Shown here: piece after piece, positions 6,158 to 28,285 of the stretch
Layout: each line of letters begins with the position of its first letter
How positions within the stretch are numbered: position 1 is the first letter of the stretch
Origin: Flavobacteriales bacterium
GTDB lineage: Bacteria > Bacteroidota > Bacteroidia > Flavobacteriales_D > Crocinitomicaceae
Length of the DNA stretch: 35,325 bases
Reading direction: 5' to 3'
NCBI GenBank assembly: GCA_947491305.1
Contig: CANLIL010000030.1
Coordinates: 1 to 35,325 of the forward strand
The notes under the pieces: generated by a model
Databases searched by the model: none
The model's input: the letters and a program-made list of their open reading frames with translations, nothing else
Told to the model about the DNA's origin: nothing
Made by a program: the position numbers and the translations under genes

Positions 6158-6183
6158 AGGGACATTAACGTGTCCCTTTTTTT
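6158..6183 (+). terminator. Rho-independent terminator after the bacilliredoxin gene
   Basis: Perfect 7-bp stem AGGGACA / TGTCCCT with a 6-base loop, followed by a run of seven T, 24 bases after the stop at 6133. The stop codon of the convergent CLF-like gene lies in the loop, so the last codons of that gene are built into this hairpin. On the minus strand there is no T-run directly after the stem. Confidence 0.85.
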
Positions 6184-7217
6184 ATAAGTATAAAACCGTG
6201 ACGAATGCCATCAAAATGATTGTAAATCAAAATATGATTACAATTTGTTGGGAATTCAGTGTTAAATGCAGGATGTGCTCCATTAATTTTTCCGTTAAGA
6301 ATTTGTACACCTAAATAGGTCGCAAATCCTGAAATGGTTCTGTAGTCACCTGTTAATTGCTTAAAATTAATTGCAGGTGTTGCAGGAAAAATTTGATGGA
6401 AATCGTCGTACCAAAAATCAAGTCTGTTGTCACCATTTTTTCCTAACAGGATCAAATCAATTGCATCCATTGAGAGTTGATTTTTTTCAAAAAACGCATT
6501 CATTAAAACTGTTAAATCAGCTGTTGAAGGATGGATGATTTGTGTCGTGTCTACAATTTCAGCAACGGCATGTTCAGGGCTATTCGAAAGCAGGAAAAAA
6601 CTTGCTCCTTCGCCACAAATACTGCCTTCAGTATTCGATTGAATTAATTGATCGTTACTTATAATTTCTTTTTTATAGCGCCCTGATAGTAAGTCAATAT
6701 GATAGTTATACGAAGAAATTTCTTCAACGGAACCTACTAATAAAGATGTTTTATTGGTTGTCGCTTCAAAGAATAATTTTGCATCAACGAGTGCATTTTC
6801 AAAAGACAAAGATCCGTTTACATGTGTTGAATTATAACCTGTGTTTTTTGTCATTAAAGCCAACTGCCCTGCCAATGCGTTGGGCGTACTTTGCACAAAA
6901 TTTGTTGGAGTTAAAACTCCTTCATCGTACGCTACAATTTGATTCAAAAAATCAATGCAATTTTCTAAACCACCATTTGCAGTGCCAATAATGATACCAT
7001 CTACTTTTTGGTTTCTATTAACGATTGGAAGCGCTGCAGCTATACCCATTTTAACGGCTTTACCCATTCTTCTTAATAAATTAAGTGGTATAAATTCAGC
7101 ATAAGCTGGTTCAACAATCGGTAAAGTTGCTGCAGAATAAATAGCATAATCCCCTTTTTCAAAAGATAAATCATGTGTTTTTTGAGCTGAAATTGCCTGT
7201 TGATCAATTACATACAT
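6165..7217 (-). CDS. Chain-length-factor-like ketosynthase partner (CLF-1)
   Basis: Thiolase-fold protein of 350 residues related to beta-ketoacyl synthases but without the active cysteine: the nucleophile position is Ser136 in NGSLSFENAL. Such proteins pair with an active ketosynthase and set chain length in type II polyketide systems, as ApeC does with ApeO in aryl polyene synthesis. The start was placed at the ATG at 7217 (MYVIDQQAIS), which overlaps the upstream KS stop by 10 bases; a longer frame to 7241 would overlap more. It is last in operon A after ACP and KS, forming an ACP-KS-CLF module matched by a second module at 17700-20045. Whether it acts on the polyene or on the DAR chains is unknown. 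Confidence 0.82.
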   Translation of the reverse strand: MYVIDQQAISAQKTHDLSFEKGDYAIYSAATLPIVEPAYAEFIPLNLLRRMGKAVKMGIAAALPIVNRNQKVDGIIIGTANGGLENCIDFLNQIVAYDEGVLTPTNFVQSTPNALAGQLALMTKNTGYNSTHVNGSLSFENALVDAKLFFEATTNKTSLLVGSVEEISSYNYHIDLLSGRYKKEIISNDQLIQSNTEGSICGEGASFFLLSNSPEHAVAEIVDTTQIIHPSTADLTVLMNAFFEKNQLSMDAIDLILLGKNGDNRLDFWYDDFHQIFPATPAINFKQLTGDYRTISGFATYLGVQILNGKINGAHPAFNTEFPTNCNHILIYNHFDGIRHGFILIKKGTR

Positions 7218-8407
7218 TTTGAAAAAATTAAAGAGGTACAATTTCCGCCAAATCCAAAAGAATTAGACATTATGTAATGAATTGGCTGCTGCTCACAATA
7301 GGTTTGAATCGGTTGAAATGGAAAAGTATTTATCGGATCCTGACAATTTAAACTTGGGTACAATTCATTATTTTCCATGCTTAAAACAGAAAAGATTGCC
7401 TCCAATGCTCCAGAAGCAGCTAATGTGTGACCAGTATACGATTTTGTAGAATTATAGGGAGGTGGGTTGTTCTCAAAAACAGTAGCAAATGCAGTTGATT
7501 CTGTTTCATCGTTATTAATAGTTCCCGTTCCGTGAGCATTGATATAATTGATTTGGCCAGCTGTTAAACCAGCAACTTGAAGTGCTTTTTGCATGGCTAA
7601 AACAGGACCTACAGCATCTGGTGATGTTGCTGAAGGATGAAAAGCATCATTTGAGTTGCCAAACCCAATAACTTCAGCATATTTTTTTTTCTTGTTGGCA
7701 CACGCTTCATTTTCAAGTACCAAATAAGCGCCTGCTTCGCCTAGATTCAACCCTTTTCTATCTGTTGAAAAAGGAGCACACGCTTCGTCACTTAAAATCA
7801 TTAATGCATTAAAACCATTGACCGTATATTTTGCAAGACTATCCGCGCCGCCAACAATTACACGTTCTAATCGACCACTTTGAATCAATCTTGCACCTAA
7901 TAATATTGCATTTGCAGAGGAAGAACATGCAGTATTTATTGTATCCGTGTAACCCTTTATAGTGTAACGATTGGCAATTTGAAAGGTGTGATCAGATGCT
8001 TCGTAAGATCCAACAAATTCAGAAGCTTCACCTTGTAAATTTGCATCTTCATATAATTTATCCGTATAACACATTCCGCCAACTGTTGAAGCAGAAATAA
8101 ATCCTGTTGTAAAAGAAGAAAGTGCTTCCTCTGATAAATTGGCTGAAGTAATGGCTTGTTGAAATGCAGCTAAAGCAATTAAAGAAGTACGGGTTAATCC
8201 ACTATTTTTAGGAGAATTCGTCAAATTAATAAAATCCTCATCATTAAGTGGGATTTCACCAAAAAGTAAAGAATTAACATAATTAGATTTGAAAAAACGC
8301 GCTTTTTTAATGCCAGATGTACCATTTATCAAGGATGATCTAGCTTCTAAAGCTGAATTTCCGATGGCAGATATTGCTCCAAATCCTGTAACAAATACCT
8401 TTGACAT
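7208..8407 (-). CDS. Beta-ketoacyl-ACP synthase, FabF type (KS-1)
   Basis: Active condensing enzyme of 399 residues. The catalytic triad is complete: Cys161 in NTACSSSANA, His292 in NAHGTGT and His327 in SYTGHTLAASG, with Lys322 before it. It elongates ACP-bound acyl chains with malonyl-ACP by decarboxylative Claisen condensation. It sits between its own ACP (2-base gap) and a CLF-like partner (10-base overlap), so a KS-CLF heterodimer is likely. It closely resembles KS-2 at 18613-19791. Context ties it to flexirubin or dialkylresorcinol chain building rather than housekeeping fatty acid synthesis. Confidence 0.93.
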   Translation of the reverse strand: MSKVFVTGFGAISAIGNSALEARSSLINGTSGIKKARFFKSNYVNSLLFGEIPLNDEDFINLTNSPKNSGLTRTSLIALAAFQQAITSANLSEEALSSFTTGFISASTVGGMCYTDKLYEDANLQGEASEFVGSYEASDHTFQIANRYTIKGYTDTINTACSSSANAILLGARLIQSGRLERVIVGGADSLAKYTVNGFNALMILSDEACAPFSTDRKGLNLGEAGAYLVLENEACANKKKKYAEVIGFGNSNDAFHPSATSPDAVGPVLAMQKALQVAGLTAGQINYINAHGTGTINNDETESTAFATVFENNPPPYNSTKSYTGHTLAASGALEAIFSVLSMENNELYPSLNCQDPINTFPFQPIQTYCEQQPIHYIMSNSFGFGGNCTSLIFSKCM

Positions 8408-8409
8408 CG

Positions 8410-8673
8410 TTATTTTGTTCGGTTTTCCTCGATGTATGCAACAATTGTATTAACGTCAACTAAAATTTGTCTTCCATCGGCTGGATTTTTAATTTTAATG
8501 CCGTATTCTCTGTCCAATAAAACAATTAATTCAACAGAATCAATAGAATCTAAGCCTAAATCGCCCCCAAATAATGGTTCGTCGTCTTTAATGTCATCAA
8601 TCGAAATATCTAACAAATTCAGGTAAGTTATTAAATGATTTTTAAATTCTAACGTTAATTCATTTGTTGTCAT
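8410..8673 (-). CDS. Acyl carrier protein (ACP-1)
   Basis: Phosphopantetheine carrier of 87 residues. The attachment site is Ser43 in GLDSIDSVEL, followed by the usual helix II LIVLLD and a YGIKI segment. It carries growing acyl or polyketide intermediates for the adjacent KS-1/CLF-1 pair. It strongly resembles ACP-2 at 19791-20045, including the LGLDSID and ELIVLLD stretches. The 41-base gap separating it from the permease gene is the longest in operon A and contains a -7-like box, so it may also have its own promoter. Confidence 0.95.
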   Translation of the reverse strand: MTTNELTLEFKNHLITYLNLLDISIDDIKDDEPLFGGDLGLDSIDSVELIVLLDREYGIKIKNPADGRQILVDVNTIVAYIEENRTK

Positions 8674-8686
8674 ATACTTTTTTTTT

Positions 8687-8714: not shown

Positions 8715-9989
8715 TTAAATATAATGTTGTTTTTTTAATTTAAGCAACATTAAAAGTTGACAAATGCTAGAGAAAGTAAGCAAATAACTAATTGGAGCGA
8801 GTAAATCTTTCCAGCCGCCATTTTTCAAAAACAACGTATAATAGCCATCTAAACACCAATGAAGTGGTGAAATTAAGGCAAGAGATTGCATGTAATCTGG
8901 CATCACAAACGTAGGCACCCAAATGCCGCCTATTGCTGCAAAAATAATGATGGATACTGCGCCAAAACCATTGGATTGTTCTTGTGTTTTAGCATATGTC
9001 CCAACACACATCGCATAACTTATAGCTGAAAAAGCAGCTAAAACTGAAAACAGCACTAAGGCTAACATCGAACTATTAATGGTCAAAACAGGTAGCCCAA
9101 TAATTGGAAAAAGAAAACGCCCCATTGCAAAAAGTAAAAGAATTTGGAGTAAGGCTACTATGAAAAAAACAAAGATTTTACTGTAAACAGCAGCAATAAA
9201 TGCAGATGGAATGGTTTGCAAACGAATAAAACTTCCTGCATTTCTTTCTTTCACAATGTTACCTCCAAGCGATATAACCATAAAAAACATAGCGAAAATT
9301 GTCCAAGCAGGAACATTGTGTTGTGTTGAATTAGGCAATACCGCAGTTTTATTTTCTTGAGCAATCGATTCTTTAATCCAACTTTGATGAGAAATTTGCT
9401 TTCGTATTTCAGCTGGTATTTCTTGAAAATCCATCTCTTTAAATAAGCTTTCAAGTACAATTTTATTTTCCAATCCTTTTAAAATAGTAGCCAAACTAGA
9501 AGAAAAAGTAAATCTGATGTTTTCTTGTAAAATAGGATCGTAAACAACTTCTAGGGGTTGATTTCTTTGGGCAGTTACGATTGGTTCTTCTTCAATTGCA
9601 CCAAATGCAGACAACATCGTTTGTGAGAGTAGTGCTGCAGAACCAGACAAATTAGCAGAAAAATTAGTTGGAATATAAATGCCAAATAAATGTTTGTTGG
9701 CTAATGTTACTTTTGAAAAATCAGACTTTTTAGTGGTGTTTTTAATTGTTAACTCAAAATTACCTGATTTTTCAAGCAACGATATCAGTGAATCTCCAGA
9801 ATTTCCAGAATCTTTATTGACAATTAATAAAGAAAATTTATTTTCATTGACAACTTTGAACGCGCTGTCTTGAACAATTGTAATGATTAAAACCAACAGC
9901 ACTGGCATTATAAACAACAAGGCCAAGCCTATCTTATCATTTAATAAAATAAAAAATTCTTTCTTGATGGATGCCAATAGCTGTTTCAT
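8715..9989 (-). CDS. ABC-2 type transporter permease
   Basis: Membrane component of an ABC exporter, 424 residues. Topology fits the ABC2 type-3 family: one N-terminal membrane helix (about residues 20-38), a large non-cytoplasmic domain to about residue 225, then five to six hydrophobic helices including WTIFAMFFMVISLGG and FFIVALLQILLLFAMG. The start at 9989 overlaps the stop of the ATPase gene by one base (TAATG), so the two are coupled. Placement between the BtrH-like acyltransferase and ACP-1 suggests export or membrane positioning of a pigment precursor or finished pigment, but the substrate is not shown by the sequence. Confidence 0.9.
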   Translation of the reverse strand: MKQLLASIKKEFFILLNDKIGLALLFIMPVLLVLIITIVQDSAFKVVNENKFSLLIVNKDSGNSGDSLISLLEKSGNFELTIKNTTKKSDFSKVTLANKHLFGIYIPTNFSANLSGSAALLSQTMLSAFGAIEEEPIVTAQRNQPLEVVYDPILQENIRFTFSSSLATILKGLENKIVLESLFKEMDFQEIPAEIRKQISHQSWIKESIAQENKTAVLPNSTQHNVPAWTIFAMFFMVISLGGNIVKERNAGSFIRLQTIPSAFIAAVYSKIFVFFIVALLQILLLFAMGRFLFPIIGLPVLTINSSMLALVLFSVLAAFSAISYAMCVGTYAKTQEQSNGFGAVSIIIFAAIGGIWVPTFVMPDYMQSLALISPLHWCLDGYYTLFLKNGGWKDLLAPISYLLTFSSICQLLMLLKLKKQHYI

Positions 9990-10747
9990 TAGTCGCGCAG
10001 TTGATTACCAGTTAATGTTAATAATAATTGTTCCAAATCCAGCACGTTATTTTCGATTAATAAATTTTCAAGCGTATCACAAGCGATGATGCTTCCTGTA
10101 TCAATCAAGGCAATACGATTACAAAAATCTTCTGCTTCTTTTAGGTGATGGGACGTATAAACGATCGTTTTACCTTGAGAATTTAATTCATTTAATAAAG
10201 AAAAAATTGCTGTTTTACTTTGTATGTCAACGCCTACCGTTGGTTCATCTAAAAATAGGATTTCCGGATCGTTTAATAAGCCGATTGCTAAATTAATTCT
10301 GCGCTTCATTCCACCTGAGAAGGTTGTTAATTTTGCATTTTTCACATGGCTCAATCCTAATTTTGAAAGCAATGTGTTAATTTTTTCTTTCAGAATGTCA
10401 GATGGTATTTCGCACAAAGCTCCAAAATATGAGAGGTTTTGGTATGCCGTCAATTCTTCGTAAAAAGCAAATTCTTGCGGCACAAAACCAATGTGTTTTC
10501 TAAATGCTTTTGGATTAAAATGTTGGTTATTTAATGTGAACTTAATTGTACCTTTAGATGGTTCAAAAAGGGCACAAAGCAAGGAAATAAAAGTTGTTTT
10601 CCCAGCACCATTTGGACCAAATAATCCTACTTTTTCCCCTTTAAAAACGCAAAAATCAATGTTATTTAGCGAATTAACCTCGGATTTGGGGTATTTTTTT
10701 AACAAATTAGTAATTTCAATTATTACTGATTTGTTTGGAGCTTCCAT
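9989..10747 (-). CDS. ABC transporter ATP-binding protein
   Basis: Nucleotide-binding subunit of 252 residues powering the adjacent permease. Walker A is GPNGAGKT (residues 44-51), the signature is SGGMK (144-148), Walker B is ILFLDE (163-168) and the H-loop His follows in YTSHH. The ATG at 10747 is preferred over an in-frame GTG three bases upstream because it gives a one-base TGATG overlap with the BtrH-like gene. It belongs to the multidrug/antibiotic (CcmA/DrrA-like) ABC-2 type. It sits in the DAR operon, so a lipid-like aromatic substrate is a reasonable inference. Confidence 0.94.
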   Translation of the reverse strand: MEAPNKSVIIEITNLLKKYPKSEVNSLNNIDFCVFKGEKVGLFGPNGAGKTTFISLLCALFEPSKGTIKFTLNNQHFNPKAFRKHIGFVPQEFAFYEELTAYQNLSYFGALCEIPSDILKEKINTLLSKLGLSHVKNAKLTTFSGGMKRRINLAIGLLNDPEILFLDEPTVGVDIQSKTAIFSLLNELNSQGKTIVYTSHHLKEAEDFCNRIALIDTGSIIACDTLENLLIENNVLDLEQLLLTLTGNQLRD

Positions 10748-11763
10748 CACTTAAATTTTATTTTTGACAATTGCGTAAATGCAGCTTTTTCAACCGCGCT
10801 AATTTGATCCAATAAATCAGCACATCGTTCAAAATCTTGTTGCGTTTTGAGCCTTCCTTTAAAAATTCCAGCCATTAAAACCGCACTGTCTCTCCATAAA
10901 TCTCCTGCTTTGGTCAAATGTTCAGAAACTTCTAATAATTCTTTTTCGTCAAGAATGGCTGCTGCTTCCTCTAAAAATGCTGCATAAAGAAAGCGAAAAC
11001 CACCGCCACCAGTGCCAATTTCTTCTTGCATACGAATAATTTGTCCTAAATACAATGCTGCTTGTTTCTCTCCCAGCTGCGAACGCCATTTTCGAATTTT
11101 CTTAGCGGTATGTTGAATTCCAGCAACACCAGCAAAGCTTCCTGGTATATTCAGCATGTCTCTACAATTTCGTTTAATTCCTTTAATGATTGCTTTTTTA
11201 AGCGTTTCATGCGAAATTTGTCCAACATGGATAGGATAATAAACATGGCCTTTTGGAGCAAGTGCACCTTTTGCAAAACGCACTTTAGACAATTCTTCCT
11301 CAGTTAAAGATGTTGTAGTTTCCATCACTGGATCGCTTATTAAATAGGAGTTTTCATTTTTGCCATACACAATTAAATTATGTGCATTAAAATGAAAGCG
11401 GTATTCTTTTGGGAAATAATTAAGGTGAAAAACCCCAACTTGACAGCCTACAGGAATGTTATTGGCAACTTTTTCTTCCAAATAAAGTGCTGCTTTTTCA
11501 GGTGAATTAAATTTCTTTTTTTCAACCTTTATTCCCAAAGCTTTACACGTTCTTTTAAAAATGGCGCCTGGCATTGTTCTGAATGATATTGCAGGTCCAT
11601 TGTTGACTTTCATAAATGGAATCTGAATGTAAAACAATCCTGAGCCAATCCCAAAAGCTAGAGGTTCGGTAATTTTATCAAAACCATGATGTTTCAATAA
11701 GCTAACTGTTACACCATTTTCACAATGTGCAGTTTGATGGTGGTTAAATTGCTTCGCTTCCAT
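10747..11763 (-). CDS. BtrH N-terminal domain protein (candidate ACP-dependent acyltransferase)
   Basis: Protein of 338 residues resembling BtrH plus a DUF4872 C-terminal region. BtrH in butirosin synthesis moves an acyl group from an ACP to a small acceptor through a cysteine. Here the N-terminal segment AHCENGVTVSLLKHHG has Cys14 in the expected nucleophile position. The middle carries a papain-like His/Asp region (YRFHFNAHNLIVYG, LISDPV). The C-terminal third is helical. It overlaps the upstream small gene by 20 bases and the ABC ATPase by one. In flexirubins the polyene acid is esterified to the dialkylresorcinol, so an ACP-to-phenol acyl transfer is the attractive but unproven role. Confidence 0.8.
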   Translation of the reverse strand: MEAKQFNHHQTAHCENGVTVSLLKHHGFDKITEPLAFGIGSGLFYIQIPFMKVNNGPAISFRTMPGAIFKRTCKALGIKVEKKKFNSPEKAALYLEEKVANNIPVGCQVGVFHLNYFPKEYRFHFNAHNLIVYGKNENSYLISDPVMETTTSLTEEELSKVRFAKGALAPKGHVYYPIHVGQISHETLKKAIIKGIKRNCRDMLNIPGSFAGVAGIQHTAKKIRKWRSQLGEKQAALYLGQIIRMQEEIGTGGGGFRFLYAAFLEEAAAILDEKELLEVSEHLTKAGDLWRDSAVLMAGIFKGRLKTQQDFERCADLLDQISAVEKAAFTQLSKIKFK

Positions 11764-12154
11764 TGTAATTCTTCAATTCCGATACAGATAATTCAAACGC
11801 TGTAGCGTATTTTTCTAATTTTTTAGTTGATAATTTTTGGAATACTGTTGGTTTTAAATGGCGTTTAATTTGCCATTTCCAAAATCCTGTATAGCCACTT
11901 AGTACAGTAAAATCCATTAATTTTTCTTCCATAAAAAAAGCGATTGGGCTGCTTATTCCAGCACGAACATTTTGTTGCGCTTCTTTGATACGATCATTAA
12001 TATCGTCCCAAGCATTGTCCAAAGCAACTTTTTTTGCTTCCCAACCAGTACTTAGGTCGGTTTCGTAATTTCCAGCTTCGTTTTTAACATAACAAACCTC
12101 TCTTGTGAAATTATCAAGGGCACTTTTATCTTGAGGTAAATCTTGTTTTTTCAT
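11744..12154 (-). CDS. Uncharacterised small protein between DarB and the BtrH-like gene
   Basis: No family was recognised for this 136-residue protein. It is charged and predicted mainly helical, without a signal peptide or membrane segment, and is rich in aromatic residues near its centre (SGYTGFWKWQIKRHLKP). The start was set at the ATG at 12154 (MKKQDLPQDKS), as the frame upstream opens only with TTG. Seven codon-free bases separate... the coding end overlaps the BtrH-like gene by 20 bases, and the DarB stop is 10 bases upstream. Constant coupling with both suggests it helps the dialkylresorcinol or esterification step, perhaps as a partner protein; that is inference only. Confidence 0.7.
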   Translation of the reverse strand: MKKQDLPQDKSALDNFTREVCYVKNEAGNYETDLSTGWEAKKVALDNAWDDINDRIKEAQQNVRAGISSPIAFFMEEKLMDFTVLSGYTGFWKWQIKRHLKPTVFQKLSTKKLEKYATAFELSVSELKNYNGSEAI

Positions 12155-12164
12155 CAAAAAGGAA

Positions 12165-13313
12165 TTAGCAAACAGTTAATAAACTAAATACATATGAAAA
12201 ACGTGAGCTTTCAGGAACAGCTAGTAAGATTTGATCGCCTACTTTCAGCTTTCCACTGTTCAATAAACCATCTACCATCATATAAATTGATGCTGCTCCC
12301 ACATTTCCTTGGTAAGATAAATTGGTAAACCATTTTTCTTTTGGGATTTCAATATCGTATTCTTTTAGAGCATCGTAGATTTTATCTTCAAAAAAGTGAC
12401 TAGACATATGCGGTAAAAAATAAGCCACTTCATTCACGTCAACTCCTTTTTTTACAATTGTTTCTTTCAATTTTTTAAAGCCCAATTTTACGATGTTTTC
12501 ACCTAATAATTTCACATCTTGCTTGATGCTCAATATCGATTTTTCATAAACTTCAGTAGGAGTATAATCCATGTAACTTTTCAAGGTTCCATCCGAATTT
12601 TTATCAGCGGCCATGTACATACAAGCTTCAGCTTCATTGGCAAAAGAGAATCCTTCAATCCAATCAACGCGAAGAGAAACACCTGTCTCACTTTTCTTGT
12701 TTTCTAATAAAAAAGTAGCTGCGCCATCAGAAAGCATCCATCTTAAAAAATCTTTTTCAAATGCTAAAAATGGATTTTCTTCTAATTCAACTAAGCGTTT
12801 CACCTCTAATTCAAACTGATCAGCTCTTAAAATACGTGACAGACGTTCGGAGCCACTTGAAATTGCTTTGCTTTTTTCGCCTAGTTTAATCGCCATATAC
12901 GCATATTTGAAGGCATGCATTCCTGAACAACAAACGCCTGAAGGAGAAACAACTTCTATCGTGTTAGAATCTGGAAGCCATCCATGTACCATCACTGCGT
13001 GCGAAGGCATCATTTGATCTGGACTTGAAGTCCCACACGATAATAAATCCACTTCTTTTAATTCTTCTGGACGATTTTCAAATAACTTTCTTACTGCCAA
13101 TGCAACCATTTCTGAATTGGTATGTGTCGGAGTTCCATCCGGTTGAATGGCGTAAAATCGATTGAGGATTTTATTGTTTCTTAATACAATTCGTCTAGAT
13201 TTGGAAGTTTGATCATTAATGACGCCTAAAAATGTTTCCATTTCGTCATTTGAAACGGGTTCATTTGGAAAAAAAGAAGCTGTTCTTGTGATGTATACTT
13301 CGTTCAAATTCAT
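12165..13313 (-). CDS. darB: DarB-type ketosynthase III (dialkylresorcinol synthesis)
   Basis: KAS III-fold enzyme of 382 residues. Characterised DarB homologues condense two acyl thioesters into a 2,5-dialkylcyclohexane-1,3-dione, the precursor of dialkylresorcinols. The expected triad is visible: Cys129 in GVCCSGMHA, His302 in FLPHMSSHF and Asn337 in GNVGAAS. Cys128 precedes the nucleophile, giving an unusual double cysteine. The start overlaps the DarA stop by four bases (ATGA), a strong sign of coupling. The DarA neighbour separates this from housekeeping FabH. The acyl partners cannot be read from the sequence. Confidence 0.88.
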   Translation of the reverse strand: MNLNEVYITRTASFFPNEPVSNDEMETFLGVINDQTSKSRRIVLRNNKILNRFYAIQPDGTPTHTNSEMVALAVRKLFENRPEELKEVDLLSCGTSSPDQMMPSHAVMVHGWLPDSNTIEVVSPSGVCCSGMHAFKYAYMAIKLGEKSKAISSGSERLSRILRADQFELEVKRLVELEENPFLAFEKDFLRWMLSDGAATFLLENKKSETGVSLRVDWIEGFSFANEAEACMYMAADKNSDGTLKSYMDYTPTEVYEKSILSIKQDVKLLGENIVKLGFKKLKETIVKKGVDVNEVAYFLPHMSSHFFEDKIYDALKEYDIEIPKEKWFTNLSYQGNVGAASIYMMVDGLLNSGKLKVGDQILLAVPESSRFSYVFSLLTVC

Positions 13314-14212: not shown

Positions 14213-14219
14213 AAACAAC

Positions 14220-14663: not shown

Positions 14664-14687
14664 GTAATAAGCGAGATAAATGAACAA

Positions 14688-14721: not shown

Positions 14722-14758
14722 ATTTGGTTAAGAAATTTACTTTATTGGGTAGAATCAT

Positions 14759-14766: not shown

Positions 14767-14772
14767 TATACA

Positions 14773-20045: not shown

Positions 20046-20640
20046 TTTTATATTGTTTATAAATTTTTTCTACTTCTTCTGTTAACGAAAGATTGGTTGA
20101 ATTTTCAACTAAAAATACAAAACATTCTTTAGTTTTTAAAGGATGATCTTCCACCCATGCACATAAGCAATAGGAAGCGCCCTTTTGAAAGGCAAATTTT
20201 AATTGTTCTTCAAAAAAAGAAGCATTGAATTTTTTTTGAATGAAAAAACAACTTTCGCCATACCATTTGTACTTTATAGCTAATTCTCCTGTTACAATAT
20301 TTGGCAGCGTGTAGACAAATAAAGAAGGACTTGGCATATTTAATTCAGTGTAGGAATTAATAAATTTAGCATCAAAATCACTACTTGAACCTGCATTTGA
20401 AAAAACCAAATGTAATCCCTCTTCGGTAATCTCCTGATTCGGCAATGCTTCAGCTATTAATTCAACAGCTAATAAAGCCATTTTAGACAAGCCATCCATT
20501 TTATGGAATTTTGGATAATCTAATTTTAAATGAACATAAAGTTCTTTTGTCCAATTATCATTTTCTTGAAAAGAATAACGTTCTTTTCCATTCACTGCTG
20601 CACCTAATTGAGATAAGTAGCTATGTGTATTAATTTTCAT
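20038..20640 (-). CDS. Truncated CLF/ketosynthase-like protein (CLF-3)
   Basis: Protein of 200 residues that matches only the first half of a ketosynthase fold. SPSLFVYTLPNIVTGELAI aligns with SPTAFIQSTHNTIAGQISL of CLF-2, and FNASFFEEQL stands where CLF-2 has SLSFELAL. No cysteine nucleophile is present and the C-terminal half is absent. The reading frame is intact and ends normally, so it is probably a stable short protein rather than a fresh pseudogene. The start at 20640 shares an ATGA overlap with KS-3, and its stop overlaps ACP-2. A role as a small partner of KS-3 is inferred. Confidence 0.72.
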   Translation of the reverse strand: MKINTHSYLSQLGAAVNGKERYSFQENDNWTKELYVHLKLDYPKFHKMDGLSKMALLAVELIAEALPNQEITEEGLHLVFSNAGSSSDFDAKFINSYTELNMPSPSLFVYTLPNIVTGELAIKYKWYGESCFFIQKKFNASFFEEQLKFAFQKGASYCLCAWVEDHPLKTKECFVFLVENSTNLSLTEEVEKIYKQYKNE

Positions 20641-21719
20641 CGCACTGATTTTAAAATTAATACTGCATTTCCACCACCAAAGCCTGAAGCAGTTTTTAAG
20701 ACATATTGGCACTTTTTCTCTTGGTTTTCAGAAAGAATATTGAGCGATTCTGGCGTTCCTTGTTCATCAAAACCAAGACTTTTAAAAAGCATTGAATGTT
20801 CCATAGAAAGCATACAAATTAAGGTTTCAATAACCCCTGCAGCGCCTAATGTATGGCCAAAATATCCTTTCATGCTATTGAGAGGAATTCCTTGCATTCC
20901 CAAGCGGTTAAATGCAATACTTTCCATATCATCGTTGAAAATAGTACCCGTTCCATGTGCAGATATAAAATCGATATCTGTTGCTGATATCTCGGCTTCT
21001 TTTAAGGCGTTTGAAACAGCTCTGAACAACCCTTCTCCAGTTCTAGAAGGTCCAGAAATATGATTGGCATCATTCGATGTTTTTCCACTCACGTATTCGA
21101 CACAAAACGCTTTCTCTTTTCTTGAAGTTAAATGAATAATGCCACAAGCTTCGCCTAAATTGATGCCTTTTCTAGTCTTATCAAAGGGTTGACACATTTC
21201 ATCACTTAATGCAAACAAACTTTGAAAGCCATAAATAACGAAATCAGAAATTGCATCAATGCCTATAACAAAGGAATCATCGTAGCGTTCAGACTGAATG
21301 TATTGAGCTGCTAAATTAAGTGCAACAACGCCAGAAATACAGGCATTTGAAATAATTATTGGTTCATTTGATGTTGGAAAATGTGCCTTAAGAATCGTTC
21401 TCAAGGGTTCAAATGTGTCATTTGGTAATTGCGATAAATCAGCCTTTGTTGAGCTGATAATAAAACAAGTTTTAGGACTATTTAATCGATCAGAAGTATG
21501 CTCTTTTATTAACGCTTCACATGCAGAATTTAACATAAATTGCAGTGAATTATTTTCAGGTATGCTTATTTTTCCAAGCGGTAAATTTTCTTTATTAAAT
21601 CCAATTGAATCCACCCAATTTAATCCAGAAGTATTGGTGATAAAAGCATTAAAATGCGCGTTTATCCCATTTCCAATCGGACTGATTAATGTGCCATATT
21701 TTAAATAAACATTACGCAT
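20637..21719 (-). CDS. Beta-ketoacyl synthase family protein (KS-3)
   Basis: Condensing-enzyme homologue of 360 residues, more divergent than KS-1 and KS-2. Triad residues are kept: Cys127 in SNACISGVVAL, His255 in SAHGTGT and His289 in GYFGHTLGAAG. The N-terminus is short for the family. The ATG at 21719 (MRNVYLKYG) is chosen over a frame opening at 21752, as it overlaps the thioesterase stop by only 8 bases. It is paired with the truncated CLF-3 through an ATGA overlap. It could catalyse an early or special condensation (for example first extension of the aryl starter, as ApeR-type enzymes do), but this is not shown. Confidence 0.85.
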   Translation of the reverse strand: MRNVYLKYGTLISPIGNGINAHFNAFITNTSGLNWVDSIGFNKENLPLGKISIPENNSLQFMLNSACEALIKEHTSDRLNSPKTCFIISSTKADLSQLPNDTFEPLRTILKAHFPTSNEPIIISNACISGVVALNLAAQYIQSERYDDSFVIGIDAISDFVIYGFQSLFALSDEMCQPFDKTRKGINLGEACGIIHLTSRKEKAFCVEYVSGKTSNDANHISGPSRTGEGLFRAVSNALKEAEISATDIDFISAHGTGTIFNDDMESIAFNRLGMQGIPLNSMKGYFGHTLGAAGVIETLICMLSMEHSMLFKSLGFDEQGTPESLNILSENQEKKCQYVLKTASGFGGGNAVLILKSVR

Positions 21720-22140
21720 TGATCCAAGGTTGTTGTTCTTCCCAATTGGCATAAAAATCGGGTTTGTTTAATTCCAACGTTCGTTCTTTGGCAGATAAGA
21801 AAACTTGAATTGTTTGACCAATAGCCGCCAATTTATTCGTAGATAAATTCAATACTTCGTAACGAAACACAATCTTAGCAGCAGAACGAAATTCTAAGAT
21901 AGCCGTAACTCGAAGGTTTTCACCATAATAAATTGGTGCTTTATGATCTATTTCACTGTGAACAATGGGTGTAAAATAACCTTGATTGAAGATGGCTAAA
22001 TTATCTAAGTTGTATTCTTTCCCCAGACATTCACGAGCGTCTTCAAAAAACTTTAAATAATTGCCATGCCAAACAACACCCATTGCATCTGTTTCACTAA
22101 ATCGAACTGCTAAATCAATAGATTTTTTTAGAACTTTCAT
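21712..22140 (-). CDS. Hotdog thioesterase, 4-hydroxybenzoyl-CoA thioesterase (YbgC) type
   Basis: Thioesterase of 142 residues. The 4HBT motif is plain: RFSETDAMGVVWHGNYLKFF, with Asp18 in the catalytic position. It hydrolyses acyl thioesters in the cytoplasm; in aryl polyene clusters a similar thioesterase (ApeK type) is thought to release or proofread ACP-bound intermediates. The ATG at 22140 overlaps the preceding stop by four bases (ATGA); a longer frame to 22164 is less likely. It overlaps KS-3 by 8 bases. Confidence 0.9.
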   Translation of the reverse strand: MKVLKKSIDLAVRFSETDAMGVVWHGNYLKFFEDARECLGKEYNLDNLAIFNQGYFTPIVHSEIDHKAPIYYGENLRVTAILEFRSAAKIVFRYEVLNLSTNKLAAIGQTIQVFLSAKERTLELNKPDFYANWEEQQPWINA

Positions 22141-22556
22141 GCTAAAACAATTTTTAATTGACAAGTTAACAAATCCGTTTCATTACATCGTGCAATCCCT
22201 TCAATTAAATGTATAGTACCAAATGAACTTAAAACTTTGATGGAGGTTTGAATTAGATTTCCTGCTTCAGCTGTTGCAAAAACCTCCAATTTTGAAATAG
22301 CACCAATGAATCCCATTCCACCAGCATCTTCGCCATTTTGTGTTGCAACATATCCAAATCCAGCAGCACAAGTTTGAGCAATGTTTTCAATTAAAGCAGA
22401 TTCTGACAAACACTTGTTTGCTAAGAATAAATTATCTTCCTCAATTAAAAAAGAAGACTCAAATGATGTTTCATTTGCGTCAAGTAAAGCATCAATCATG
22501 ACAAATGGCGCTCTTTGAGGGATGTATTTTAAGATATTTTCTTTGTTAACTAACAT
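22137..22556 (-). CDS. ApeP-like hotdog dehydratase subunit
   Basis: Hotdog-fold protein of 139 residues like the ApeP family of aryl polyene 3-hydroxyacyl-ACP dehydratases. IPQRAPFVMIDALL and ESALIENIAQT are the family hallmarks. Glu57 in IENIAQ aligns with the FabZ catalytic glutamate, but the histidine expected fourteen residues before it is absent (Leu43). Alone it may therefore be inactive, fitting a heteromer with a His-bearing partner, as ApeI and ApeP form in E. coli. The ATG at 22556 overlaps the acyltransferase stop by 11 bases and the stop overlaps the thioesterase start by four. Confidence 0.82.
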   Translation of the reverse strand: MLVNKENILKYIPQRAPFVMIDALLDANETSFESSFLIEEDNLFLANKCLSESALIENIAQTCAAGFGYVATQNGEDAGGMGFIGAISKLEVFATAEAGNLIQTSIKVLSSFGTIHLIEGIARCNETDLLTCQLKIVLA

Positions 22557-23418
22557 AATATTTGTAAAAATTAAACCATTGATTTGGCGCTTTTTTAACG
22601 TTCGATTCAAGCTCTTCGACATATTTTAGCGCTAATTCTTCCGGAGAAGTAGCATTGATTAAATAATTTGTAGCGCTTAAATCATAATGTAATCCTTTTC
22701 CTTTTAAAGCAAAAACAAATGTTAAAGGAACATTGAATTTATGCGCCATAAAAAATGGTCCTAAAGGAAATTCAGCCAATCCATTTAAAAAAGGCAAGCG
22801 TATTTTTTTTTGATCTTCCACTACGCGATCTGCATGCAAAGCAATCATCTCATTACGCTTTAAAGCTTGGTGTATTAAAATCAAATGTGACATGTCATCT
22901 TTTAGCGGAATTAAATTGAATTTTACCGCTTCAGTTTGTTTAGAAAGAAACCCTTTAATTTTTTCCACTTCAGCGTCCAACATCAAAATATTAATTTTAG
23001 AAGTAATTCTCTCACCAATAAAACTTCCTGCATTTTCCCAATTACCAATGTGACCAGAAAATAAAAACCCGCCTTTTCCTAAAGTATTTATTTCTTTTAA
23101 AACGGCTTCATTTTCAAATGTAAACGAATAGTGTTTTTTTAAAGTGGTTTTCAGTGCGATGCGATCAATCAAAACTTGACCAAAATTGAAAAATGTTCGA
23201 ATCGTATAACCAAAAGACTTTAAATATGAAAATTGAAAGCCTGTTTGATAAAAATGGATCAAAGCTTTTCTATTTTTGCTTGCAAATAAAACGTAATAAA
23301 ACGTCACTAAACGACAAAAAGCATAACTAAAGCGAATGCCAAAAAAACGTATGCTGTATACAAAGAATTGATAGCCTAAAAGAGTACCCTTTGTTTTACC
23401 ATTCCATTTTTTTTCCAT
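22546..23418 (-). CDS. LpxL/HtrB-like acyltransferase
   Basis: Membrane-associated acyltransferase of 290 residues of the lipid A biosynthesis (LABLAT) type. An N-terminal hydrophobic stretch (about 12-47) precedes the HxxxxE motif SGHIGNWENAG (His123, Glu128), and later LHADR and LPFLNGLAEFPLGPF fit the family. LpxL enzymes move acyl groups from ACP to lipid A; similar proteins are standard in aryl polyene clusters, where they likely attach the polyene or a fatty chain to a lipid anchor. It follows ACP-3 by 6 bases and overlaps the ApeP-like gene. Its acceptor is unknown. Confidence 0.88.
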   Translation of the reverse strand: MEKKWNGKTKGTLLGYQFFVYSIRFFGIRFSYAFCRLVTFYYVLFASKNRKALIHFYQTGFQFSYLKSFGYTIRTFFNFGQVLIDRIALKTTLKKHYSFTFENEAVLKEINTLGKGGFLFSGHIGNWENAGSFIGERITSKINILMLDAEVEKIKGFLSKQTEAVKFNLIPLKDDMSHLILIHQALKRNEMIALHADRVVEDQKKIRLPFLNGLAEFPLGPFFMAHKFNVPLTFVFALKGKGLHYDLSATNYLINATSPEELALKYVEELESNVKKAPNQWFNFYKYYVS

Positions 23419-23424: not shown

Positions 23425-23670
23425 TTATTCCGCCATTTTAACTTCAACCATTTGATAGAAATCTTCAAATGTTGCAACTGATTTAAAATCTTCTGCTGAA
23501 GGTTTAAATCCTAAATTTTCTTCAATTACAATCACAAGATCAACATAATCTAAACTACTTAAATCAAGCGTTTCTTGCAAATTGTTTTCAGGTTCAATCG
23601 TATTCGGATCAACTTCAAATTCTTCAGATAAAAAACGTTTTGTCGTTTCAATTATTTCTGCTCTATTCAT
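23425..23670 (-). CDS. Acyl carrier protein (ACP-3)
   Basis: Carrier of 81 residues of a different subtype from ACP-1 and ACP-2. The attachment site is Ser39 in LDLSSLDYVDL, where a serine stands in place of the common aspartate before the modified serine (SSL rather than DSL). It has KPSAEDF before the last helix. It lies 8 bases after KS-4 and 6 before the acyltransferase, so it may feed that enzyme. Confidence 0.92.
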   Translation of the reverse strand: MNRAEIIETTKRFLSEEFEVDPNTIEPENNLQETLDLSSLDYVDLVIVIEENLGFKPSAEDFKSVATFEDFYQMVEVKMAE

Positions 23671-23678: not shown

Positions 23679-24902
23679 TTAAAGTTTAAATTTTTTGATG
23701 ATTAACGATGAATTTGTACCTCCAAAACCAAATGAATTGGATAAAAAACAATCAATTTTTGCTTCACGAAACTCAGGCACAATATTTATTTTCGATGAAT
23801 CTTCATCGGGGTTTTCAAAATTAATATTTGGTGCAATAAAATCATTTTGCATCATTAGTAATGAATAAACAACTTCACTTGCGCCTGCCATCCAACATTC
23901 ATGTCCTGTCATGCTTTTGGTTGAACTAACAGGAATCTTTGAGCCCAAAACACCTGCAATTACTTGTGCTTCTGTTGTGTCTCCAACAGGCGTTGATGTA
24001 GCATGCGCATTGATGTAATCAATATCGTTTGGTGTTAAACCAGCCTGTTTCATCGACATTGTCAAGGATCGATATTGGCCGTCAAAATTAGGGTTTGAAA
24101 TATGATCGCCATTGGAAGAGAAGCCATAACCAACAATTTCCCCGTATATTTTGGCATTTCGCTTCAATGCCGATTCTAAGGATTCGATGATAATCGTAGC
24201 TGAGCCTCCTGAAGGAACCAAACCATCACGATCGCGGTCGAATGGTCGGCTTGCTTTGTGCGGTGCGTCATGGCGAATCGAAAATGTTCCTAATCCGTCA
24301 AAACTGCCCATTGCATAAATGTTAATTTCTTGCGCGCCCCCACAAATTACTCGTTCTTGCAAGCCTTGTTTAATCAATAAGTAACCCATCCCAATAGAAT
24401 GCGAACCTGAAGCACAAGCTGCAGACATTGTTAAATTGATGCCTTTCAATTTATAAATCGTAGATAAATTCATGTTTACCGTACAATTCATATTTTGAAA
24501 AATATCACCACTTCCAATCAGTGTTGTATCTTTTCGTTGACGTGCTTTGTCAATTGTTTCTACAACAGCTCCTGCTGTAGAATCATTCCCGAAAATAATT
24601 CCAGTTTCATTGTTCTCAAAGAAATCTGCATCCAAACCAGCCATTTCAACAGCTTCTTTTGTTGACATGTAAGCAAACATTGCAGGTTGGTGCATTCCAA
24701 TTCGTTCTCTTCGCGATAAAAAAGGTTTTAAGTCTGGATCTTTTACAAAGCCAGTTAAACACGATCTATAACCAAATTCTTTTCTCAGCTCATCATAAAT
24801 TATTCCGCTTTTCCCTTCTTTTAAAGAAGTTAAAACTTCGGGAATAGATTCACCGATGCTTGAATAAATACCGATACCTGTGATTACAACTCTGTGTTCC
24901 AT
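23679..24902 (-). CDS. Beta-ketoacyl-ACP synthase, FabB/FabF type (KS-4)
   Basis: Condensing enzyme of 407 residues with complete triad: Cys163 in SAACASGSHSIG, His300 in NAHATSTPVGD and His334 in MTGHECWMAGAS. The MTGHECWMAGAS pattern is FabB-like and distinct from KS-1/2. It stands without a CLF partner and lies between FabG (2-base gap) and ACP-3. In aryl polyene systems one such stand-alone ketosynthase starts the chain (ApeR-like) or supplies fatty-acid-like chains; which applies here is open. Confidence 0.93.
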   Translation of the reverse strand: MEHRVVITGIGIYSSIGESIPEVLTSLKEGKSGIIYDELRKEFGYRSCLTGFVKDPDLKPFLSRRERIGMHQPAMFAYMSTKEAVEMAGLDADFFENNETGIIFGNDSTAGAVVETIDKARQRKDTTLIGSGDIFQNMNCTVNMNLSTIYKLKGINLTMSAACASGSHSIGMGYLLIKQGLQERVICGGAQEINIYAMGSFDGLGTFSIRHDAPHKASRPFDRDRDGLVPSGGSATIIIESLESALKRNAKIYGEIVGYGFSSNGDHISNPNFDGQYRSLTMSMKQAGLTPNDIDYINAHATSTPVGDTTEAQVIAGVLGSKIPVSSTKSMTGHECWMAGASEVVYSLLMMQNDFIAPNINFENPDEDSSKINIVPEFREAKIDCFLSNSFGFGGTNSSLIIKKFKL

Positions 24903-24904: not shown

Positions 24905-25636
24905 TTAAGCGTAAATTCCACCATTAATATTAATGACTTCACCTGTAATGTATGCGGCCTTAGGAGAGGCAATAAAACTCACCAAGTCAGCGACTTCTTG
25001 AGGAGTGCCAAAACGATTGGCTGGCACCATTTTTTTCAATTCATCGATGGGCAAGTCGCTCGTCATATCCGAAAGAATAAAACCTGGAGCAACTGCATTC
25101 ACCGTAATATTTCGTTTAGCCACTTCTTGCGATAATGCCTTAGTTGCAGCAATCATTCCCCCTTTTGCAGCGGAATAATTTGTTTGACCTGGAACACCTT
25201 TCAATCCGCTTAAAGAAGCTACATTGATAATTCTACCAGAGCGATTACGCAACATTTTTTGGATTACAGCTTGCGTACAATTGTACATTCCTTTCAACGA
25301 AGTATTGATGACATCGTCCCAATCATTTTCACTTACCCATGGAAATAAATTATCACGTGTAATTCCAGCATTGTTTACCAACACCTCTATTTTATTTTCA
25401 GGATTATTGGTGAACCATTGTTGCATTTTATCCTGCACTTCTTGATTGTTTTTAACATCAAATTGCATTAATTCTGCTGAGCCACCATGTGACTCAATTT
25501 CAGACATTGTTGCTGCTGCAGCTGCTTGATTGGCTGTATAATTGATGATAATATGTAAACTATGATCTAACGACAATTGAATAGCAATTGCCTTTCCCAA
25601 CCCTCTTGATGCTCCTGTAACCAATGCGCTTTTCAT
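24905..25636 (-). CDS. fabG: 3-oxoacyl-ACP reductase, FabG type
   Basis: Short-chain dehydrogenase/reductase of 243 residues, normal for FabG. The cofactor loop is TGASRGLG (residues 7-14), followed by NNAG (88-91) and the catalytic Ser141-Tyr154-Lys158 set in NVASLSGLKG and NYSAAKGG. It reduces 3-ketoacyl-ACP to 3-hydroxyacyl-ACP with NAD(P)H, the step before dehydration in polyene building. The 47-base gap upstream is the widest in operon B and contains a -7-like box. The KS-4 gene follows after two bases. Confidence 0.94.
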   Translation of the reverse strand: MKSALVTGASRGLGKAIAIQLSLDHSLHIIINYTANQAAAAATMSEIESHGGSAELMQFDVKNNQEVQDKMQQWFTNNPENKIEVLVNNAGITRDNLFPWVSENDWDDVINTSLKGMYNCTQAVIQKMLRNRSGRIINVASLSGLKGVPGQTNYSAAKGGMIAATKALSQEVAKRNITVNAVAPGFILSDMTSDLPIDELKKMVPANRFGTPQEVADLVSFIASPKAAYITGEVININGGIYA

Positions 25637-25679: not shown

Positions 25680-25683
25680 TAAA

Positions 25684-27213
25684 TTAAAAATTAAATGAAG
25701 TATTTTTTAATAAATCAGTTACTTTTTTAATTGCCTCAAATTGCGGGATATCTTCATTGATAGTAGCAGATACTGTGCGGATAAGTTCGTAAACATTTTT
25801 AGTATTTGCAGATAAATCTTTGTGCATTTCTAGTGGCAAAAGATCAATTGCTTGACATATTGCCATCATATGAATTGCCATCACTTGAAATCCATTTTCA
25901 ACCACCTTTTTAGTAATTGAGGCGCTGTTTGTACCCATGCTCACAATGTCTTGGTTGTCATTGTTGTTTGAAATGCTGTGCACGTACATTGGATTTGATA
26001 ACATTTGACTTTCTGCCGTAGTAGAAGTTGCTGTAAACTGCATGCCTTGAACACCAAAATTAAACCCTAATTTTTGAGTATTCAAAAACGGCGGGAAATA
26101 ATCATTCAAACGGCTATTCAATAAAAAATTCAATTGTCGTTCGGCCAACATCGTCAACTTCGTAATAACAATTTTCACTTTGTCCATTTCCAACGAAACA
26201 TAATCTCCATGGAAATTTCCGCCATGAAAAACATTCTGTTCATCAGCGCGAACAATTGGGTTGTCATTTGTTGAATTTATTTCATTTTCAATCACTTGTT
26301 TTGCAACGTCCAACGTTTCTTTTATTGGCCCTAAAATCTGCGGCACACATCGAATGGAATAATATTCTTGAACTTTCTTTTTGATTTCAGTTTGCTGTAA
26401 AACAGCATTATCAGCGAATAATTCTTCGCGTTGTTTGATACGCTTGCTTGAAGCTAAAAAATCACGCATTCTTTCGGCAATATGTAATTGCCCTTTGTGG
26501 CGCTTCACTTCGTTTAATCCAACGGAGAAAGAATCATCATACGCCTCTACCAATTCATTAATCATCGAAGAAGAAGCAATTGCCCAATTCATTAAACGGT
26601 AAGAATATATTAAATTCATGGCTCCAATTCCAGTCATACAAGAAGTTCCATTCATTAAACCTAAACCATCTCTTAATTCAATAGCTAACGACTTAATAGC
26701 TAATTCGTTCAAAACATCGCTTGCTTTTCTACGTTCATTCTTGTAACGCACATAACCTTCACCAATTAAATTCAATGCCAAATGCGCCAATTGAACTAAA
26801 TCACCACTTGCTCCTACTCCGCCGTGTTCGTAAATTTCGGGGTAAATTTCATGGTTTAAAAACAATTGTAGTTGTTCAACGACACCATAACTTATGCCAG
26901 AATTTCCTTGTAAGAAATTGTTGACACGCGCAACCAATACCGCGCGAACAGATTCATCATCTAGAACATTTCCAGTTCCAGAAGAATGACTTCTAATTAA
27001 ATTATATTGCAATTCATTTAATTCAGAATCATCAATTTTAAATTGAGCCATCGGACCAAAACCTGTATTGATTCCATAAATGATTTTATCTTTAGAAAAA
27101 TCCTTTAAAAAAGAAAACGACTGGTTGATCGTCTCTTTCATTGCAGCATTTATTTCAAATTGTTTTTTATTTAAAACAAACGCTTCAATTTCTTTTAAGG
27201 TAATGTTGTTCAT
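25684..27213 (-). CDS. Aromatic amino acid ammonia-lyase, probable tyrosine ammonia-lyase
   Basis: MIO-type lyase of 509 residues in the HAL/PAL/TAL family. The self-forming MIO triad Ala135-Ser136-Gly137 lies in HGGVGASGDLVQL, and catalytic Tyr46 in YGINTGFGPM. The sequence resembles what I recall of the characterised Flavobacterium johnsoniae tyrosine ammonia-lyase across most of its length (LQYNLIRSHSSGTG, GGNFHGDY, MLAERQLN). It should deaminate L-tyrosine to 4-coumarate, the aryl starter of flexirubin. The usual substrate-switch positions read Ser75-His76, as in histidine lyases, so substrate is inferred from overall likeness and context. It follows the methyltransferase by 22 bases. Confidence 0.9.
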   Translation of the reverse strand: MNNITLKEIEAFVLNKKQFEINAAMKETINQSFSFLKDFSKDKIIYGINTGFGPMAQFKIDDSELNELQYNLIRSHSSGTGNVLDDESVRAVLVARVNNFLQGNSGISYGVVEQLQLFLNHEIYPEIYEHGGVGASGDLVQLAHLALNLIGEGYVRYKNERRKASDVLNELAIKSLAIELRDGLGLMNGTSCMTGIGAMNLIYSYRLMNWAIASSSMINELVEAYDDSFSVGLNEVKRHKGQLHIAERMRDFLASSKRIKQREELFADNAVLQQTEIKKKVQEYYSIRCVPQILGPIKETLDVAKQVIENEINSTNDNPIVRADEQNVFHGGNFHGDYVSLEMDKVKIVITKLTMLAERQLNFLLNSRLNDYFPPFLNTQKLGFNFGVQGMQFTATSTTAESQMLSNPMYVHSISNNNDNQDIVSMGTNSASITKKVVENGFQVMAIHMMAICQAIDLLPLEMHKDLSANTKNVYELIRTVSATINEDIPQFEAIKKVTDLLKNTSFNF

Positions 27214-27235
27214 TTTGAGTTGAATATAGCACTAA

Positions 27236-28285
27236 TTATTTTAATTTAACCTCTAAAATTGTATGGAAGCTATCTTGATGCAGGTGGTATTCGTTGACAC
27301 ATTCGAAGCCTGCTTTGTCTAAAATATATTTAAAAACAGATGACGAATACATTTTACTATTACCGTTTGCAATGGCTGTAAAATACAAAGAAGTTGCAAC
27401 TAAACTATATGCTGCTGCAGGAAATGTTTGATTATCGATAAACGTTTCCATGATATAGATAGTGGCATCTTTTTTAGCATTTTTCTTGATTTTTAATAAA
27501 ATCATTTCGATTTCATTTTCACTGAAACAATCTAAAAACTGACTCATCCAATACACATCAGCGCCACCTTTTATTTCAGTTGATGGATTTAATATATCGA
27601 TTTCATTGTAATGAACACGGTCTTTTATATCCGTAATTGAATCAATGTTCTTTTTTGCAACCGCTAATTGGCCAGGTAAATCAAACATATCAACTTGCAC
27701 ATTATTATTATATTTTGTGCTAGCAATTGCCCATTTTCCGGTATTCCCACCAATATCAAAAATGGAGGCTGGATTTGATTTAAAAATAATTTTTAAGGCA
27801 TCGTCGAACGAATTATCCGAATAATAATGATCAAATTCAAACCATGCTTTTTTAACATCTTCAGGTAATTGAGACAAGCCTTCATAGACCGTTGACCAAT
27901 CACCAAAAACTTTTAATCCAGCAGGTTTTCCGTCACGAATGGCTTCTTTCAAATTAAATAATCCGTTGTAACAAACATCATTGGTAAAATTAAAATTCAC
28001 ACGGGTCATTTCATCACGTGCTAAAAAATAACCTATATCAGTTAAGGTGTAAAATCCCGTTTCTTTTTGCTTTACAATATCAGCCATTTCAGCCATTTCA
28101 ATCAAAACAGTAACTCCATACAACGAAACAGCTGTTTTTTCAGATATTTCTTTAAGACTTAAGCCATTTTTAACTGCAAACAATTCTTCAAAAACATTAA
28201 ATGCATACATGCAATTAACCGTTTGAAAAACAAAAGGGCTAAATGCTATTTTGTGGGCCTCATATAGAGCTTGAATTGCTTTCAT
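27236..28285 (-). CDS. SAM-dependent methyltransferase, O-methyltransferase type
   Basis: Methyltransferase of 349 residues. The N-terminal third is helical with a winged-helix dimerisation look (LSLKEISEKTAVSLYGVTVLIEMA); the C-terminal Rossmann domain has motif I FDIGGNTGKWA (from Asp177). In flexirubins the aryl ring may carry a methyl group, so this enzyme may methylate ring carbon or a phenol oxygen; the site is not determined by sequence. The ATG at 28285 is used because the frame further upstream opens only with GTG at 28312, inside a -7 box. It leads operon B and directly precedes the ammonia-lyase. Confidence 0.88.
   Translation of the reverse strand: MKAIQALYEAHKIAFSPFVFQTVNCMYAFNVFEELFAVKNGLSLKEISEKTAVSLYGVTVLIEMAEMADIVKQKETGFYTLTDIGYFLARDEMTRVNFNFTNDVCYNGLFNLKEAIRDGKPAGLKVFGDWSTVYEGLSQLPEDVKKAWFEFDHYYSDNSFDDALKIIFKSNPASIFDIGGNTGKWAIASTKYNNNVQVDMFDLPGQLAVAKKNIDSITDIKDRVHYNEIDILNPSTEIKGGADVYWMSQFLDCFSENEIEMILLKIKKNAKKDATIYIMETFIDNQTFPAAAYSLVATSLYFTAIANGNSKMYSSSVFKYILDKAGFECVNEYHLHQDSFHTILEVKLK

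Follow-up and report, generated by a model that had tools for sequence, protein, structure and literature searches.

The stretch analysed here, called the window below, covers 35,325 nucleotides (contig CANLIL010000030.1 of assembly GCA_947491305.1) in the 2.53-Mb draft genome of a Flavobacteriales bacterium of the Crocinitomicaceae, and its DarB shares 97% identity with the DarB of a Crocinitomicaceae bin. At the gene level the window can be firmly filed as a flexirubin biosynthetic locus, in which FlxA, DarB, DarG and DarH each exceed the curated NCBI cut-offs of their hidden Markov models (HMMs). It contains a module of acyl carrier protein (ACP), ketosynthase (KS) and chain length factor (CLF) twice, one set in each of two minus-strand runs, A and B. 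Lineage within Bacteroidota, linkage and gene order all mark the set in run A (ACP-1/KS-1/CLF-1) as part of the dar operon and as an old paralogue of the ACP-2/KS-2/CLF-2 module.

Run A (14690 to 6165) begins with a small protein, followed by DarA (13310-14218), assigned from its position and its conservation beside DarB in relatives since the HMM search gives only a weak flavodoxin match. Next come the KAS III type ketosynthase DarB (12165-13313; NF053539, 625 bits, cut-off 550), DarG (11744-12157; NF053545, 191.4 bits, cut-off 170), the BtrH-related acyltransferase DarH (10747-11763; NF053550, 473.8 bits, cut-off 300), an ATP-binding cassette (ABC) ATPase (9989-10750; PF00005) and an ABC-2 permease (8715-9989; PF12698). 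The run ends with ACP-1 (8410-8673; PF00550, Ser43), KS-1 (7208-8407; Cys161/His292/His327) and CLF-1 (6165-7217; PF13723). Profile searches of the open reading frames (ORFs) of the window gave no recognised ketoreductase or dehydratase in this run. A plus-strand gene for a family-2 glycosyltransferase with DUF2062 (14680-15939) separates the two runs.

Run B (28312 to 15955) starts with an O-methyltransferase-like gene (27236-28312; PF00891), the tyrosine ammonia-lyase FlxA (25684-27213; NF053541, 803 bits, cut-off 700), a ketoreductase of the short-chain dehydrogenase/reductase type (24905-25636; PF00106), KS-4 (23679-24902; Cys163/His300/His334), ACP-3 (23425-23670; PF00550), an LpxL-like acyltransferase (22546-23418; PF03279) and a FabZ-like dehydratase (22137-22622; weak FabZ match, below cut-off). 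It continues with a 4HBT thioesterase (21712-22164; PF13279), KS-3 (20637-21752; Cys138/His266/His300), CLF-3 (20038-20640), ACP-2 (19791-20045; PF00550, Ser42; NF006617, 70.9 bits, cut-off 70), KS-2 (18613-19791; Cys154/His287/His322) and CLF-2 (17700-18611; PF13723), and closes with a polysaccharide deacetylase (16945-17703; PF01522), a LolA-like protein (16322-16948; PF03548) and a FabA-like dehydratase (15955-16320; PF07977).

Condensing enzymes and their partners

The window contains four FabB/FabF-type ketosynthases with full Cys-His-His sets (KS-1 to KS-4, all of which also keep the GFGG gate), DarB, whose Cys128 and His302 are invariant (10 of 10 aligned DarBs), and three partners without the nucleophile. 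A preliminary description of this DNA had counted the same five intact condensing enzymes and three partners, with ACP-KS-CLF present twice, and it placed all of them correctly. Its term "cysteine-less" holds for the nucleophile, as none of the 60 aligned CLFs (CLF-1, CLF-2 and their relatives) has Cys in the nucleophile column, while CLF-1 and CLF-2 contain other cysteines. The "lone" ketosynthase, KS-4, is not alone, as ACP-3 adjoins it.

The two modules are related to each other, with 44.6% identity between KS-1 and KS-2, 54.9% between ACP-1 and ACP-2 and 29.4% between CLF-1 and CLF-2, while KS-1 shares about 32% with KS-3 or KS-4. CLF-1 matches the ApeC chain 6qsp_B with E 3.4e-7, and CLF-2 only with E 0.073. 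KS-4 groups with Klebsiella aerogenes ApeR in a KS tree of 86 rows computed without FabB (support 84); its best match in PDB by sequence is a FabB and not ApeR (7f27), and its best NCBIfam match, PRK07967, lies below the cut-off.

CLF-3 is a half-size protein (200 aa) without any match in Pfam and NCBIfam searches and without a sequence match to ApeC, so that the relation is seen by fold only. For its AlphaFold2 model (predicted local distance difference test 84, predicted template modelling score 0.84), the first Foldseek match is the ApeC chain 6qsp_B of the ApeO-ApeC complex (E 8e-6, TM 0.51), and because of this first match the CLF label is fair. VIA-align superposes the model on ApeC with Z 12.2 over 181 residues at 4.7 A, a score that many KS chains reach alike. 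Cys131 of CLF-3, judged by eye to be nearest to the nucleophile position, is present in 3 of 20 aligned rows.

Phylogeny of the duplicated module

For the KS trees, 122 rows were collected from 60 of 132 mapped stretches, from three plasmid records and, within the genome that holds the window, from two FabF genes, and were thinned by hand to 86 rows for the large tree and 43 for a more careful one. In the large tree, the KS1 type forms one clade of 22 rows and the KS3 type one clade of 25 rows, both with support 100, and the KS1 clade is recovered with 99/100 in the 43-row tree. Two ketosynthases (G300 and G542a), which are KS2 by BLAST, stand beside dar genes and fall outside the KS1 clade, were omitted from the 43-row tree and from the residue comparison below. 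The split between CLF1 and CLF2 is a single branch with 100/100 support among 60 rows, computed after two CLF rows (G411b and G584 CLF1; branch lengths 9.65 and 7.04) had been dropped as wrongly picked frames. ACP1 and ACP2 are also split by a single branch (support 97; 59 rows, with only 90 columns and long-branch warnings).

Since the KS, CLF and ACP trees split alike, it is supported that the three genes duplicated and diverged together as one module. The KS1 rows of the large tree come from seven families of Bacteroidota (Crocinitomicaceae, Chitinophagaceae, Spirosomataceae, Reichenbachiellaceae, Cyclobacteriaceae, Saprospiraceae and Prolixibacteraceae), so the module was duplicated long ago, and the duplication is spread across the phylum and not particular to this locus. 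The preliminary description had proposed a whole-module duplication from the pairwise matches, and had named a tree check, whether KS-1 and KS-2 fail to be sister or co-evolving lineages; with the check run, the proposal is not refuted and the three trees bear it out. A recent local duplication without division of labour would also account for the pairwise similarity of all three members. The agreement of the three trees rules it out, as does the finding that each module copy resembles its counterparts from other families more closely than its paralogue, and we give this explanation practically no weight. The direction of the duplication is less clear. KS1 is nested inside KS2 in the 86-row tree, which is not firm, and for the 43-row tree the approximately unbiased test does not reject a single KS2 clade (p-AU 0.334), so that KS1 may lie inside or beside KS2.

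Five alignment columns differ between the two KS lineages, with 27 to 29 of 29 KS1 rows and 38 to 40 of 40 KS2 rows agreeing at each. The residues are D116 in KS1 and E108 in KS2, Y135 and H128, N158 and S151, and the pair P258-S259 or Q253-T254. The pair directly follows the His equivalent to His257 of AbApeO, a conserved surface residue and proposed ACP contact in the excerpted text of PMC8358021. Loop 2, which holds this His and the following pair, is suggested to modulate gating (PMC7138838). His128 of KS-2 was also considered as the equivalent of AbApeO His138 in a cavity comparison; it lies near and, by our count, not at that position, and is not used as proof.

Linkage of the two modules

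To summarize which genes accompany each module, we used the 132 mapped stretches, of which 52 come from G genomes (including the window) and 80 are named stretches found by DarB, so that linkage counts from them are biased. Four genomes were fetched twice (G573/L096, G474/L156, G411/L140 and G518/L133), and locus counts therefore exceed genome counts. Outside the trees, a gene was assigned to the KS1 or KS2 type by its better BLAST match. It turned out that an ABC permease gene lies at most 2.5 kb upstream of all KS1-type genes (47 of 47) and of none of the KS2-type genes (0 of 67), while KS-3/CLF-3 lies upstream of 61 of the 67 KS2-type genes and of none of the 47 KS1-type genes. A second set, not chosen by DarB, comprises the 21 genomes that searches with KS-1 brought up, 18 from an order sample of 199 (the genome of the window among them) and three from a phylum sample of 395. 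In all but one of them, KS1 stands behind the dar ABC genes (20 of 21); DarB is in the same run as KS1 in 18, and all 21 have DarB somewhere in the genome.

The KS2 type travels with the polyene side, namely tyrosine ammonia-lyase, ketoreductase, KS-3/CLF-3 and KS-4, and such sets also occur where DarB was not found: in G118 and G394 (DarB model not over cut-off) and, with no DarB match at 1e-30, in G395, G427 and, less complete, G476. The first four of these genomes each contain one KS1/KS2-type ketosynthase and no KS1. A Persicobacter plasmid also carries a KS2-type set, in a 25-kb stretch without annotated dar genes or KS1. This linkage supports the view that the two lineages very probably serve the two halves of the pigment, the KS-2 module the polyene and the KS-1 module the dar/resorcinol part. 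The counts agree with the preliminary description, in which one copy accompanies the dar genes and its counterpart the genes for starter and reduction.

The same evidence bears on the alternative that KS-1 is a second aryl-polyene elongation enzyme, a booster or length setter that stands in the dar operon by chance. KS-1 does share a group with KS-2, KS-3 and ApeO that excludes FabF and KS-4 (support 99, 86-row tree), and two ketosynthases cooperate in aryl polyene synthesis of Acinetobacter baumannii (excerpt of PMC8358021). The linkage disfavours such a role, as KS-1 keeps behind the dar ABC genes and in DarB-bearing genomes, and it is absent from the four DarB-less genomes and the Persicobacter stretch, which have a polyene set; the ApeR-like place is probably already filled by KS-4. 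We therefore regard a polyene role as quite improbable.

Occurrence of the KS-1 module

In the phylum sample, where type was set by the higher-scoring query, 34 of 395 genomes have a KS1/KS2-type ketosynthase at E 1e-70. Among the 30 genomes whose DarB model exceeds the cut-off, the KS2 type is present in all (30 of 30) and the KS1 type in only four (G000, G253, G269 and G391). In a deeper search of 24 genomes, the nine genomes of group f6 and the four of f5, with loci arranged in the order of Flavobacteriaceae/Weeksellaceae, hold exactly one KS1/KS2-type ketosynthase each.

Of 93 classifiable dar loci, 49 have KS1, and in 29 one or more FabZ-like genes follow darB at no more than 1.7 kb. The remaining 15 lack both, and in 10 of them an ACP still stands behind the ABC genes. 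The KS1 module and the FabZ-like gene(s) never occur together (0 of 93). This exclusion was considered as evidence of replacement and rejected as such: on the DarB tree, KS1 requires four changes and the FabZ-like gene(s) a single one, giving at most one informative independent contrast, and the exclusion may be one historical event. Examples of FabZ-like small proteins between darB and darG are found in L139 (11135-12018), L142 (11068-12037) and L153 (11083-12024), each with two such genes that have weak FabZ/ApeP matches. An ACP without KS1/CLF1 after the ABC genes is seen in L098, L099, L102, L113, L128 (Mucilaginibacter) and G099, and the G099 genome has a single KS1/KS2-type ketosynthase.

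Comparison with known systems

The order of the Azoarcus sp. BH72 dar operon is darA-B-D-E-F-(G,H)-I-C-J-K (Table 1 of PMC3949708), in which darJ encodes a ketosynthase, darC an ACP and darK a hypothetical protein. By order and domains, run A follows it: DarA, DarB, DarG (the Azoarcus DarD position), the BtrH-like DarH (DarE position), ABC ATPase, ABC permease, ACP, KS and a gene at the CLF position stand in the same order, and two Azoarcus genes, for a PilT-domain and a prevent-host-death protein, are absent from the window. By this analogy ACP-1/KS-1/CLF-1 corresponds in position to darC-darJ-darK, and where Azoarcus has the hypothetical darK, the window has a KS-fold partner that lacks the nucleophile.

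In Chitinophaga pinensis, the flx cluster (FlxA-FlxY) likewise contains tyrosine ammonia-lyase, reductase, dehydratases, several putative ketosynthases, LolA, deacetylase and acyltransferase, with five putative ketosynthases (FlxC, I, L, N and O) for the polyene, as given in the excerpt of PMC3992019. Its dar locus is separate from flx, whereas the window has both sets side by side. A CoA ligase such as FlxY had no Pfam match among the 30 window ORFs scanned. Loci of the Flavobacterium/Chryseobacterium type (L138-L158 and groups f5 and f6) have the same dar and flx genes, but in one merged run with one ACP-KS-CLF of the KS2 lineage, no KS1 module and the FabZ-like gene(s) between darB and darG.

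The ApeO-ApeC and ApeR structures (PDB 6QSP, 7F28 and 7F27) resemble the window in combining a KS with a short nucleophile-less KS-fold partner and an extra FabB-like KS. Aryl polyene clusters have one KS-CLF pair and the window three, and ApeC, with 239 aa in 6qsp_B, is shorter than CLF-1 (350 aa) and CLF-2 (303 aa). Deletion of apeR left the pigment in E. coli (excerpt of PMC8253772).

Among the literature matches listed, no title or abstract start describes a comparison of dar and polyene modules. The parts are already known; the matches suggest that dar and polyene ACP-KS-CLF as an old co-duplicated pair with an optional dar copy had not been described among them.

DarB homologues were also seen outside such loci. 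Two with about 40% identity are on plasmids of Bacteroides ovatus and Prevotella nigrescens (L164 11409-13134 and L165 11355-13125), beside a helix-turn-helix or TetR regulator gene and with no annotated dar partner in 25 kb. In five Bacteroidota genomes, a DarB-like match lies inside a frame of about 617-675 aa (G397:C1:688835, G573:C25:49010, G182:C12:543156, G254:C42:17966 and G280:C390:646), and for G397 and G573 the surrounding 20 kb gave no further recognised dar or flx gene. Beyond run B, a protein of 1269 aa (30027-33836) fuses MMPL-type exporter, acyltransferase and methyltransferase domains and has relatives beside many related loci. It adjoins a flavin adenine dinucleotide (FAD) protein (28429-30018), for which carotenoid isomerase is the best NCBIfam match, below cut-off.

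Proposed roles of the two modules

On the polyene side, FlxA would make a coumaroyl starter, on which KS-2/CLF-2/ACP-2, KS-3/CLF-3 (a further KS-CLF pair within the set), KS-4, ACP-3, the ketoreductase and the dehydratases would build the aryl polyene. Gene content, linkage and lineage indicate membership of this set, while the reactions are predicted. With moderate confidence, KS-2/CLF-2 corresponds to the elongating ApeO-ApeC and KS-4 to ApeR.

DarB joins a beta-ketoacyl partner and an unsaturated acyl partner. KS-1/CLF-1/ACP-1 could be a small non-reducing set that hands unreduced beta-ketoacyl-ACP to DarB, a tentative proposal which is favoured because the dar run is without a recognised ketoreductase or dehydratase and because dialkylresorcinol derives from two fatty-acid intermediates (excerpt of PMC3992019). 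For the same reasons, the polyene that the preliminary description had considered for the resorcinol half is not supported. Taken as a whole, our best explanation, with a probability of about 0.7, is a flexirubin locus with a polyene module and a dar-operon paralogue feeding DarB. In its favour, insertions in arcK or arcT, which left darJ untargeted, gave colourless Azoarcus (PMC3949708), so that, barring polar effects, DarJ does not stand in for ArcK.

Several observations weigh against this explanation. The best matches of KS-2 among solved structures are FabFs, with ApeO eleventh, and no KS-1 biochemistry was found in the literature searched. The effect of the arcK insertion may be polar. 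The KS1 type is absent from 26 of the 30 DarB-bearing genomes of the phylum sample, one of which (G300) has a different second copy beside the dar genes, and in both G300 and G542 this second KS falls outside the KS1 clade. Resorcinol is made from darA and darB alone on heterologous expression (excerpt of PMC3992019). G269 has an isolated ACP1-KS1-CLF1 set at a distance of 63 kb from DarB, and G418 and G480 carry DarA/DarB on a different contig from the module, which keeps its place with DarG-DarH-ABC.

The last two genomes are what one would expect if the KS-1 module served the DarG-DarH-ABC part, in joining the halves or in export, and not the DarA/DarB ring step, for example with ACP-1 as acyl carrier for DarH, whose model is an acyltransferase; the persistence of an ACP after the ABC genes in 10 of 15 loci that have neither KS1 nor a FabZ-like gene would fit as well. 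Loci of the Flavobacteriaceae type, however, keep DarG, DarH and ABC without ACP-1/KS-1/CLF-1, and the need for a KS and a CLF would be left unexplained, so we consider this role unlikely. DarH itself, which dar loci retain whether or not they have the KS1 module, is a candidate for joining polyene to resorcinol.

Returning to a module that feeds DarB, its absence from most DarB-bearing genomes and the sufficiency of darA and darB mark it as an accessory, in whose absence DarB can be supplied by housekeeping fatty acid synthesis. The suggestion of the preliminary description that this module builds an acyl chain for the resorcinol half is thus not supported as a need. A bolder version, in which the KS-1 set is a dedicated non-reducing minimal synthase split from the aryl-polyene synthase and Bacteroidota use alternative designs, with either the KS1 module or the FabZ-like gene(s) after darB, seems doubtful at present.

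In conclusion, the locus poses a puzzle, that an old co-duplicated KS/CLF module keeps to the dar operon although most of the sampled genomes with DarB lack it, and the KS1 and KS2 lineages with their diagnostic residues provide a sequence rule for labelling flexirubin ketosynthases.

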